From assembly GCA_008087055.1 (NCBI GenBank), contig VIEA01000001.1, forward strand, positions 719,346 through 783,345: a stretch of DNA of 64,000 nucleotides, written 5' to 3'. The position numbers and the translations under genes were made by a program. Shown one piece after another: positions 59,934-63,324 of the stretch. How positions within the stretch are numbered: position 1 is the first letter of the stretch; every line of letters starts with the position of its first letter. The notes under the pieces are model-generated. The model saw only the letters and a list, made by a program, of their open reading frames with translations, searched no databases and was not told the DNA's origin. The stretch is from Gammaproteobacteria bacterium LSUCC0096 (GTDB lineage Bacteria > Pseudomonadota > Gammaproteobacteria > Pseudomonadales > Litorivicinaceae).

Positions 59934-60922
59934 AAGTTCTCTACGTTAGGGATAGCTCTCAATGCGTCTTCGATGACTGACCAGTCGGCGCCTGGTAAAT
60001 GAGCGCGTTCGCTTAAAATCCGCCGGAACTGCCGAGCTCCGGGAACCTCATGATACAGATTGACCAAGTGTCTTGTCAGGTGTTTGAGCGGGAAACCCTG
60101 CTGAAGAATATCCTCAACGTAAGGTCGGTAGCTCTGGAGTGCCTCAAAGGCTGTTTGATGTGGTGGATCTTCGTTAAAAATTTCGCGGTCGACTTGCAAT
60201 AGGATTTGTGGATTTTGATATGCAGCACGACCGACCATGACACCATCGAATTCGCCTAATTCATTGATGCATTGATCAATTGTTTTTAATCCACCGTTTA
60301 AAACAATTTCCATATCCGAAAATTGTTTTTTTATTGCGTGAACTAATTTGTAATTTAATGGCGGAATCTCACGATTTTGTTTTGGTGATAAGCCGCCTAA
60401 TATCGCTTTTCGTGCATGAATAATGACATGTTTAATCTGTGCACGACTGAGCATGGCCATGAAATCAGGCAGCGTCTCTTCTGGGTTTTGATCATCGATA
60501 CCTAAGCGTATTTTTGCAGTGATTTTTGGACCGTTTTCCCCCGAGGCATTTTGCATCGCGCTAAAACATTCAGATACTTGCGCGGGATTGGCCATCAGGG
60601 CTGCTCCAAAACATCCAGCTTGAACTCGATCTGAAGGACAGCCAAGATTCAAATTAATCTCATAAAAACCCATCTCTTTAACTCGATGAGTTGCTTGATA
60701 CAGTTCATCTGGATTTGAGCCTCCGATCTGGAGGGCAAGAGGGTGCTCGGCTGACGAGTGTTCAGTTAATCTCTCGAGATCACCATAAATCAGCGCGGGC
60801 GCTGTTACCATTTCAGTGTAAAGAAGCGCTTTTTTGGTCAACGTGCGGGCAAATGCTCGCCAGTGACGGTCCGTCCACTCCATCATGGGTGCAGTTGAGA
60901 ATCGATATGCAGGAATTGTCAT
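59930..60922 (-). CDS. dusA: tRNA-dihydrouridine synthase A
   Basis: The 330-residue flavoenzyme reduces U20/U20a in tRNA. FSTAPMMEWTDRHWRAFART (about 8-27) and IHARKAILGGLSPKQNREIP mark DusA. The catalytic segment is odd: NLNLGCPSDRVQAGCFGAAL (about 90-109) has Ala where the catalytic Cys of the usual FGACLM should be, while a Cys appears four residues earlier at 104. The shifted Cys may substitute, or the enzyme may be altered. Otherwise the protein is full-length. It is the first gene of a dusA-tal operon. Confidence 0.88.
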   Translation of the reverse strand: MTIPAYRFSTAPMMEWTDRHWRAFARTLTKKALLYTEMVTAPALIYGDLERLTEHSSAEHPLALQIGGSNPDELYQATHRVKEMGFYEINLNLGCPSDRVQAGCFGAALMANPAQVSECFSAMQNASGENGPKITAKIRLGIDDQNPEETLPDFMAMLSRAQIKHVIIHARKAILGGLSPKQNREIPPLNYKLVHAIKKQFSDMEIVLNGGLKTIDQCINELGEFDGVMVGRAAYQNPQILLQVDREIFNEDPPHQTAFEALQSYRPYVEDILQQGFPLKHLTRHLVNLYHEVPGARQFRRILSERAHLPGADWSVIEDALRAIPNVENL

Positions 60923-60982
60923 ATCCGAAGTTTAACGAAAACTGAGTGATTAGAGCCACTTCTGCCATAATTATTATTATTG

Positions 60983-61060
60983 AACAAATAACTATTTGTT
61001 GAATACTTTAAAAGTAATCTTATTATTGTATTCAACATTATTGTTTTAGTTATTTGTTGA
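60983..61060. promoter_or_regulatory. AT-rich repeats in the H-NS-family gene leader
   Basis: AACAAATA-AC-TATTTGTT (60983-61000) is a perfect 8-base palindrome. TATTTGTTGA occurs twice as a direct repeat (60993-61002 and 61051-61060), the second reaching the GAGG ribosome-binding site. The region between 60960 and 61070 is strongly AT-rich with bendable TTATTATTATT runs. It fits a promoter under autoregulation by an H-NS-type protein, but this is inferred. Confidence 0.4.
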
Positions 61061-61071
61061 GGATTCTTTTC

Positions 61072-61389
61072 GTGGAATTAGAACATTTAAGTTTAAGTGA
61101 GCTCCAAGTTCTTCGTGTTCGGGTTGATCAGGAAATGGAGAAAAGACGTGCGCAGGTAAGAAAAGAAGGCTTGGAGAAAATTAAATCCATCGCAGCTGAA
61201 TATGGATTATCGGCTGATGAGTTGAAATTGCTCTCGGGTACAAAACCGTCAGGTAAGCGTGGATCAGTTGCGCCGAAATATCGTGATCCAAATAACGCAG
61301 AGAATACTTGGACTGGTCGTGGTCGTAAGCCGAAATGGGTTGAGGCTTTCTTGAACGGCGGCGGTCGCTTGGAACAGATCACAATCTAG
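61072..61389 (+). CDS. H-NS-family nucleoid-associated protein
   Basis: 105 residues from GTG 61072 with GAGG about 9 bases upstream; in-frame TTGs at 61054/61057 are less likely. The N-terminal half is a charged helix (LSELQVLRVRVDQEMEKRRA) for oligomerisation. The C-terminal domain contains APKYRDPNNAENTWTGRGRK, followed by PKWVEAFLNGGG. The WTGRGRKP core is the AT-hook-like DNA-binding motif of H-NS/StpA/MvaT relatives of the short form. It probably silences AT-rich DNA. Confidence 0.85.
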   Translation: MELEHLSLSELQVLRVRVDQEMEKRRAQVRKEGLEKIKSIAAEYGLSADELKLLSGTKPSGKRGSVAPKYRDPNNAENTWTGRGRKPKWVEAFLNGGGRLEQITI

Positions 61390-61401
61390 CTCTCTTCAAA
61401 G

Positions 61402-61438
61402 CCTCCAGCTGGCGTTATACTCTCGCGCTTGCTGGAGG
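61402..61438 (+). promoter_or_regulatory. Hairpin sequestering the gltX ribosome-binding site, with a -10-like element in its loop
   Basis: CCTCCAGC (61402-61409) and GCTGGAGG (61431-61438) are perfectly complementary. The second arm is the gltX ribosome-binding site itself, 5 bases before the ATG. TATACT (61416-61421) in the loop could be a sigma-70 -10 element. Transcripts reading in from the hns gene would carry both arms and mask the site; transcripts starting after TATACT would lack the first arm. Function is inferred. Confidence 0.45.
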
Positions 61439-61443
61439 ATCTA

Positions 61444-62955
61444 ATGACCGTTCGTACTCGTATTGCACCCTCTCCGACGGGTGACCCACATGTTGGGACT
61501 GCTTATATCGCACTGTTTAATTACGCGTTCGCAAAACAGCACGGTGGGCAGTTTGTCCTAAGGATCGAAGATACCGATCAAAAACGCTCTACAGCAGAAT
61601 CAGAACAGGCCATTTTAGATGCTCTTCGGTGGGCTGGTCTTGAGTGGGACGAAGGACCTGATGTTGGTGGAGGCTTAGGTCCTTACCGTCAGAGTGAGCG
61701 TCGAGAACATTACGAAGCCCATTGTCAGTCGCTAGTCGATGCGGGGCATGCATTCCACTGTTTTTGTACATCTGAAGAGCTCGATGCCATGCGAGCGGAA
61801 CAGATGGCTGCAAAGCAAACGCCGCGTTACGACGGTCGTTGTGCCCACTTAGCAGCGAGCGAGGTATCTACGCGCTTGGCTGAAGGTCGTGAGCATGTTG
61901 TTCGGATGCGAGTTCCTGAAGAAGGTGATTGCGTTGTCCATGACCGCTTGAGAGGTGATATTCAGATCCCTTGGGCTCAGGTCGATATGCAGGTCCTGAT
62001 GAAGGCTGACGGCCTGCCAACCTATCATCTGGCCAACGTGGTTGATGATCATTTGATGGGCATCACGCATGTCATCCGTGGTGAGGAGTGGATTCCGTCA
62101 GCGCCGAAGCATCAGTTGCTTTATCACTATTTCGGGTGGGAGATGCCTGAACTGTGTCACCTTCCATTACTGCGGAATCCGGATCAGTCGAAATTAAGTA
62201 AGCGTAAGAACCCAACATCAATCTTGTTCTATCGAGATCAAGGCTTTTTACCTGAAGCACTTTTGAATTACCTGGGTCGCATGGGATGGTCGATGCCTGA
62301 CGAACGGGAGCAATTCAGCCTCAAAGAGATGATCGAAGCATTTAATATCGATCGCGTCTCTCTTGGCGGGCCGATTTTTGATCTCGAGAAACTGACTTGG
62401 CTGAACGGTCAATGGCTTAAAAACACGCTGACTGATGAAGAATATCGTTCTCGTTTGATGGAGTGGATGTGTTCAGAGGCCTTTTTTGAATCAGCGTTGC
62501 CACATTTGAAGTCCCGTATTGATGTATTTTCAGAGGCGAGCCAGTGGTTGAATCCGCTATGGCTCAAGGACGTTCCGGTTTCTGAAGAGGCGCTCGATCA
62601 ATTGGGCCTCGAGAAAGAGGTCCTGGCTAACACATTGCAATACCTAATTTGGCGTTTTGAGAGTATCTCGACATGGAGTAGAGAGCTGATTGAGGCAGAA
62701 ATTCGTTGGGTTGCGGATTCACTCGGTTTGAAGCTTAAAGATGTGATGCCAGTTGTATTTATTGTCCTGAGTGGGACTCGCCAGGCAATCAGCGCATTTG
62801 ATCTTGCTGTGCTTCTGGGCCCTGATCGAACGCGCGCTCGTGTCAGGGCTGGGTTAGAGGCGGCGGGTGGCGTTTCTAAGAAAGGTCTCAAGCGATTGGA
62901 GAAGAGCTATCAAGAAGCACTTCAATCCATTGACACCGTCAAGGATGCGAACTAA
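61444..62955 (+). CDS. gltX: Glutamyl-tRNA synthetase
   Basis: 503 residues from ATG 61444. Class I signatures: [20 protein letters not shown] (HIGH motif as PHVG, about 9-28) and [11 protein letters not shown] (KMSKS as KLSKR, about 256-260). A zinc-knuckle pattern [10 protein letters not shown] followed by YDGRCAHL gives Cys-x-Cys and a later Cys. It attaches Glu to tRNA-Glu. It is the only gltX-type gene in the window. Its leader can fold over the ribosome-binding site. Confidence 0.95.
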
Positions 62956-62975
62956 CCTTCGCGTCCTCTTGAAAT

Positions 62976-63051
<76 letters not shown>

Positions 63052-63123
63052 TTTCTTTTCAACCTGCTCATTGATCGTTAAGGTGTCATTACCATTCGGT
63101 CAATTATAAAAATAGGGTGGGTT

Positions 63124-63324
63124 ATGAAACTAATTTTTGTTCTTGTCTATTTCGTACCGGGAAGTTTTGAACCTGTCGAGACAGGTATGCAGTTTGAATC
63201 CCTTGCGGAGTGCAACGATGCCGCATTTGAGATGGCGGCGTCGTTTGACATGAAGTACACCATGCAATGTGTCCCGCAGGACTCAGGCGATAGCCTCCCT
63301 CAGGTATCCCTACTCAAAATTTGA
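63124..63324 (+). CDS. Small hypothetical protein with N-terminal hydrophobic segment
   Basis: 66 residues from ATG 63124 with AGGGTGGG upstream. The first 12 residues are hydrophobic (MKLIFVLVYFVPG), too short for a confident signal peptide. Two cysteines (CNDAAFEMAASFDMKYTMQC, about 30-49) frame a motif seen in small proteins of marine bacteria, but I recognise no family. It lies between tRNA-Ala and soxC. Confidence 0.55.
   Translation: MKLIFVLVYFVPGSFEPVETGMQFESLAECNDAAFEMAASFDMKYTMQCVPQDSGDSLPQVSLLKI

Follow-up and report, generated by a model that had tools for sequence, protein, structure and literature searches.

The window, a 64,000-nt stretch of DNA from Gammaproteobacteria bacterium LSUCC0096, contains an hns-like gene followed on the same strand by gltX, the ATG of which lies 54 nt beyond the end of hns (Table 1). 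LSUCC0096 is an OM252 isolate, and OM252 is placed in the Litoricolaceae, Pseudomonadales (PMC8269220). Its genome, G000 in our sample, comprises 1,935,310 bases in 4 contigs, the largest of 1,442,657. A single terminator-like site was reported in 60400-61600, on the minus strand at 60804-60791, and none lies between hns and gltX. Just 3′ of gltX is a tRNA-Ala gene (anticodon GGC; window 62976-63051, +).

Table 1. Genes, hairpin elements and predicted transcript features of the hns-gltX region, in window positions.
Feature	Position	Strand	Basis
hns-like gene, upstream neighbour (GTG start assumed)	61072..61389	+	PF00816, E 1.7e-15
5′ (anti-SD) arm CCTCCAGC, outer helix	61402..61409	+	sequence, fold
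5′ arm, inner helix	61411..61415	+	fold
TATACT, putative -10 hexamer in loop	61416..61421	+	most conserved 6-mer, 16 same-genus leaders, 11.7 bits; no good -35
3′ arm, inner helix	61425..61429	+	fold
Predicted 16-nt leader of short transcript; putative +1 7 nt after hexamer	61428..61443	+	inferred; SD opening cost, window leader alone, 12.9 kcal/mol long vs 0.8 short
3′ arm GCTGGAGG, outer helix; GGAGG 61434-61438 = gltX SD	61431..61438	+	sequence, fold
gltX, glutamyl-tRNA synthetase	61444..62955	+	PF00749, E 2.4e-111; PF19269, E 4.9e-25

A stem begins 12 nt past the end of hns, where CCTCCAGC is the perfect complement of GCTGGAGG in an 8-bp outer helix, and the last five bases of the 3′ arm are the SD of gltX. 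Both the perfect 8-base stem with the ribosome-binding site as its second arm and the TATACT in its loop had been claimed in the original prediction, and both are present exactly as described; an inner helix of 5 bp, which the fold places beyond one U-U mismatch, had been overlooked. The whole hairpin comprises 13 pairs and a 9-nt loop, UAUACUCUC, that starts UAUACU. As a 43-nt RNA it folds at -23.0 kcal/mol, a value reached by 0/200 dinucleotide shuffles (mean -10.8, sd 2.44; z -5). The fold is less extreme in a 101-nt context, where z is -1.86 and 8/200 shuffles are as low. The same 8-bp arms, separated by 15-27 nt, occur once in the window and in 0/100 shuffles, and a 7-bp version of the arms (gap 15-30) is found at a single place in the genome.

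Three other identities for the hairpin were considered and rejected. A known leader RNA was set aside for want of a covariance-model match at the leader: among Rfam 15 matches with E up to 1 in 60900-63200, none is a leader match for the hairpin, and RF00005 and a sub-threshold RF04354 both fall on the tRNA-Ala stretch. On our own reading of the fold, the loop lacks UUC and therefore offers no obvious mimic of the tRNA-Glu anticodon. An intrinsic terminator was rejected on the basis of the sequence and the terminator scans because no T-run follows the stem.

Masking of the SD was compared across 267 genes with an SD-like site, called by a crude ORF rule from the window (31, including gltX) and 400 kb more. 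In transcripts running from -65 to +30, gltX ranks first of the 267 in SD opening cost, at 13.2 kcal/mol (mean 2.9, sd 2.1), and it also ranks first in the drop in cost when the transcript starts at -16 (8.7; mean 0.8, sd 2.0). The window leader folded alone also loses its masking on truncation (Table 1). Of the 267 sampled genes, 48 also combine a drop of 3.9 or more with a short-transcript cost of at most 1.9; 21 combine a long-transcript cost of at least 5 with a drop of 2.9 kcal/mol or more, and four of the 21, gltX among them, have a -10-like hexamer upstream. In these computed folds the SD of the long gltX transcript is paired in a stable stem, one trait of the T4-type arrangement taken up below. 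Other strongly SD-paired reading frames, G000:C1:335506-335964 (-), 391430-391966 (-) and 220743-221180 (-), may hold masked sites as well, within the limits of the crude gene calls.

Relatives were drawn from 25 genomes of the family, 23 of which gave a GltX match. The match in G004, G009, G013, G014 and G017 was weak and was taken for a paralogue. Each remaining genome contributed one leader, for a total of 18: 17 from the GltX search and L155 from the hns search, the latter standing in for a genome whose contig starts within gltX (L003). L155 is absent from the coding-sequence shuffle, plain-alignment, register and arm-swap tests. Loci dropped were L001 (same place as L002), L003, L026 (the 3′ part of the L017 gltX), L025 (a second gltX-like gene in G006) and the paralogues L020-L024 and L027-L031; L053-L056, from the same family, were reached by another route and lie outside the analysed set. 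L025 (G006:C19:11035-12504), from a same-genus genome, is 58% identical to the query, has neither an hns match nor this hairpin, and perhaps sits on a foreign contig.

Gene order is maintained across the family. A match to hns was detected in 18/25 genomes; in 17 of these 18 it immediately precedes gltX on one contig, with 47-59 nt, stop codon included, between the matches; in the 18th, the contig stops just past the leader. Our own scan of up to 115 nt before the ATG found a terminator-like site in 0/18 leaders, and GGAG is present in all 18.

The leaders fall into three architectures. Type A, the hairpin type of the window, accounts for 12 of the 18 (L002, L004-L008, L013-L017 and L155), with weakened stems in L005, L006 and L155. 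In type B (L009-L012), the large stem has been lost, with TATACT kept and hns still upstream; these leaders can form a short hairpin with its first arm around the end of the hexamer, before the predicted start. A GltX tree with its root on the other genus shows type B as one clade (support 1.0) nested in an otherwise type A clade (0.99). Type C (L018 and L019, from the other genus) has arms like GCCGGCT/AGCCGGC that enclose the SD and abut or include the ATG, the first arm following directly after CATAAT. A covariance model of the large hairpin matched L009 at E 0.7 and L012 at E 1.4 and left L010, L011, L018 and L019 unmatched at E up to 10.

Conservation of the loop hexamer is consistent with a -10 element. 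No other 6-mer of the 16 same-genus leaders is as conserved as TATACT (11.7 bits, against 7.8 for the best non-overlapping stretch); the hexamer is exact in 15 and reads TGTACT in L005. It stands 21-22 nt before the ATG whether the large hairpin is present or lost, and in each of the three architectures the predicted +1 comes after the first arm. Candidate -35 elements reach at most 4/6 matches in any of the 18 leaders, the best for the window hexamer being TTCAAA (4/6, spacing 15 nt), and a consensus promoter scan did not report TATACT at its window position. Leader-only masking is weakest in L005, the sole leader in which the hexamer has changed; the direction of this single case would match the nested-promoter model and also a rival based on read-through. 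TATACT and TATAAT are rare in 464 kb of G000 (the window and L134-L153), with 37 and 32 occurrences on both strands, and TATACT is about 4x denser in the 65-nt leaders of that sequence, a ratio drawn from 3 cases.

In leader-only folds, opening the SD costs 4.5-14.1 kcal/mol in the long transcript and 0.2-1.9 from the predicted +1 in 18/18 leaders. When the upstream part is shuffled, the observed cost is reached in at most 5% of shuffles for 8/18 leaders (L002, L004, L008, L012, L013, L014, L016 and L017) and by at least a quarter of shuffles for L005, L009, L011 and L155. With coding sequence included, the 5% level is attained by 7/17 (L002, L004, L013, L014, L017, L018 and L019), whereas L010 and L011 then show no masking and lose none on truncation. 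The two smaller architectures, B and C, are not clearly beyond composition when set against shuffles. Much of type A is therefore strongly masked, and a return of this logic in types B and C is suggestive only.

Co-variation of the arms, proposed with the original prediction as a check, emerges on register-corrected arms and not on a plain alignment. In the MAFFT alignment A1 (11 leaders), the covariation score of 0.193 is matched or exceeded in 211/500 shuffles and the paired fraction of 78.3% in 69/500, neither being an excess, and sliding the partners reduces pairing to at most 50.3%. On inspection, L014, L015 and L016 proved to pair in a register one base shorter. Correction for this gave 12 leaders in 10 distinct rows, with 14 pairs and 140 cells; 82.9% of the cells pair, 6/14 pairs have changed on both sides, and the covariation score of 0.373 is reached by 0/500 shuffles and compares with at most 0.141 for slid versions, in a register that was picked for pairing and so leans toward structure. 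The chosen registers hold 21 G-U and 4 A-C cells of 154, where G-U was counted as a pair in making the choice and related rows are non-independent. Swapping arms among 11 species makes the stems fold less well, with a native mean of -21.4 against -18.3 for other combinations (478/100000 permutations as low), and one row per subgroup (7 rows) gives 765/100000; in the four-genome type B clade there is no excess (66843/100000).

Outside the family, 97 loci yielded 96 gltX leaders, one having too little upstream sequence; 74 are distinct in their last 60 nt, and very many are from Pseudomonas. An hns match in the fetched stretch was found for 0/96 of these leaders, as was GGAG, GAGG or AGGA at -16 to -4. 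The hns linkage, the strong SD and the masking thus coincide, but within a single family, and so count as one evolutionary event. A -10-like hexamer occurs in 24/96 of the outside leaders and in 15/96 control stretches, a weak signal, and the hexamer was rejected as a general feature of gltX leaders beyond the family. In L035/L065, L033, L038 and L050, TATAAT is flanked by complementary G+C-rich bases that form a small stem around the -10 and do not include an SD. L065 comes under a Verrucomicrobiaceae MAG title, but its leader resembles that of L035, whose genome belongs to the window's order; the L065 record is perhaps misnamed or misbinned.

Our interpretation starts from the anatomy of the hairpin, the pairing kept in type A, the gene order and the lack of a terminator-like site. 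From these we infer promoter activity, a start site, read-through and an effect on translation. Polymerase reading through from hns would produce an mRNA in which the gltX SD is locked and from which gltX would be poorly translated; gltX output would therefore be uncoupled from hns transcription. A promoter nested in the hairpin would initiate at about 61428 and give a leader of about 16 nt, starting next to the 3′ arm, that would leave out the 5′ arm and keep the SD open. We judge such a translational insulator with a nested promoter to be the probable arrangement at hns-gltX, if by a modest measure, and have lowered its odds a little because fewer than half of the leaders stand out from the shuffle controls. 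This reading, partly supported, is also more likely than a chance hairpin. The original prediction had held that transcript origin decides whether gltX is translated; corrected-arm covariation, the conserved TATACT and the position of the first arm upstream of the predicted +1 speak for this, in a context of kept gene order and absent terminator-like sites, and the lack of a good -35 speaks against it. Its description as a switch is perhaps too strong, as a constitutive insulator may fit equally well.

The lack of a good -35 is accommodated more readily if TATACT is no promoter and gltX is read mainly from the hns mRNA, with the hairpin acting as a regulated RBS gate (a thermosensor, a protein-bound element or a site of translational coupling). 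SD-masking stems are common regulators, and the weak masking of L005 is as expected for a gltX dependent on read-through. We nevertheless consider such a gate unlikely, given the lack of an Rfam leader match and of UUC in the loop and a hexamer that would go unexplained, even where the large hairpin is gone. A ribosome terminating at the hns stop codon, 12 nt before the stem, would, from the size of its footprint, hardly reach the stem, which argues against coupling of this kind.

That same short distance would suit a hairpin serving the 3′ end of the hns mRNA, as an exonuclease stop or the mark of a Rho-dependent end, with the SD overlap a by-product of the short spacer. Such a role is compatible with a stable, conserved stem and with the lack of any other terminator-like site in the 18 leaders, but it seems improbable to us: no T-run follows the stem, the large stem is gone from L009-L012 although these retain hns upstream, and the conserved TATACT is again left unexplained. 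The inverted repeat could also be read as a DNA operator through which a dimeric repressor controls the gltX promoter. Its dyad is centred on the hexamer, and a -10-centred dyad is a typical repressor position. This we regard as very improbable, since arm sequences vary between lineages while pairing is kept, the reverse of the arm conservation that an operator would call for, and the repeat is found at a single place in the genome. The ratio of G-U to A-C cells, read with the caveats given above, likewise favours an RNA of the mRNA strand.

If the insulator interpretation is extended to the whole family, then in one bacterial lineage a promoter nested in an RBS-masking hairpin replaces a terminator and insulates an essential gene, and has been rebuilt with different arms in three architectures; the logic, not the structure, would therefore be conserved. 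We offer this extension tentatively and lean somewhat against it. Were nested-promoter insulation true, bacteria would be insulating neighbouring genes by translation and not by termination, and some 45 bp would hold promoter, insulator and RBS together; RNA-seq coverage would overestimate gltX expression by counting hns read-through. The logic of phage T4 would then operate in a chromosomal gene pair conserved among marine bacteria with small genomes. The corresponding search rule is a -10 inside or just before a strand that pairs with the SD.

Among the titles and abstract openings listed in literature searches for bacterial cases of read-through or RBS masking, none described such a case for gltX or hns-gltX, which, given the limited coverage, is no proof of absence. 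In the IS10 and IS50 transposase genes, RBS-masking structures protect from outside transcripts. The likeness is that read-through mRNA hides the RBS and the gene's own transcript does not, although there a mobile element guards itself, whereas hns-gltX is a conserved chromosomal pair. In a study of dksA-gluQ-rs in Shigella flexneri, a stem is reported to act as a transcription terminator, and gluQ-rs to have no promoter of its own (PMC3542578). That stem, too, separates a regulator gene from a glutamyl-tRNA-synthetase-like one and lowers downstream expression (PMC3542578). Bench data stand behind that case, whereas the hns-gltX case is drawn from sequence and computed folds.

Phage T4 gene e (lysozyme) and I-TevI offer the closest anatomy. 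There, long transcripts initiated upstream hide the RBS, with a 100-fold reduction cited by a review for gene e, and a promoter just upstream gives transcripts without the 5′ part of the structure (PMC3014915, PMC2988022). In its sequence and computed folds gltX has this layout: its RBS is hidden when the transcript is long, and a putative promoter placed around the first strand would give an open one. The T4 genes are phage late genes under timed late promoters, whereas gltX is a bacterial housekeeping gene with a sigma-70-like -10. The late promoter of gene e precedes the RBS and sits where the 5′ strand is encoded, and the gltX hexamer lies in the loop.
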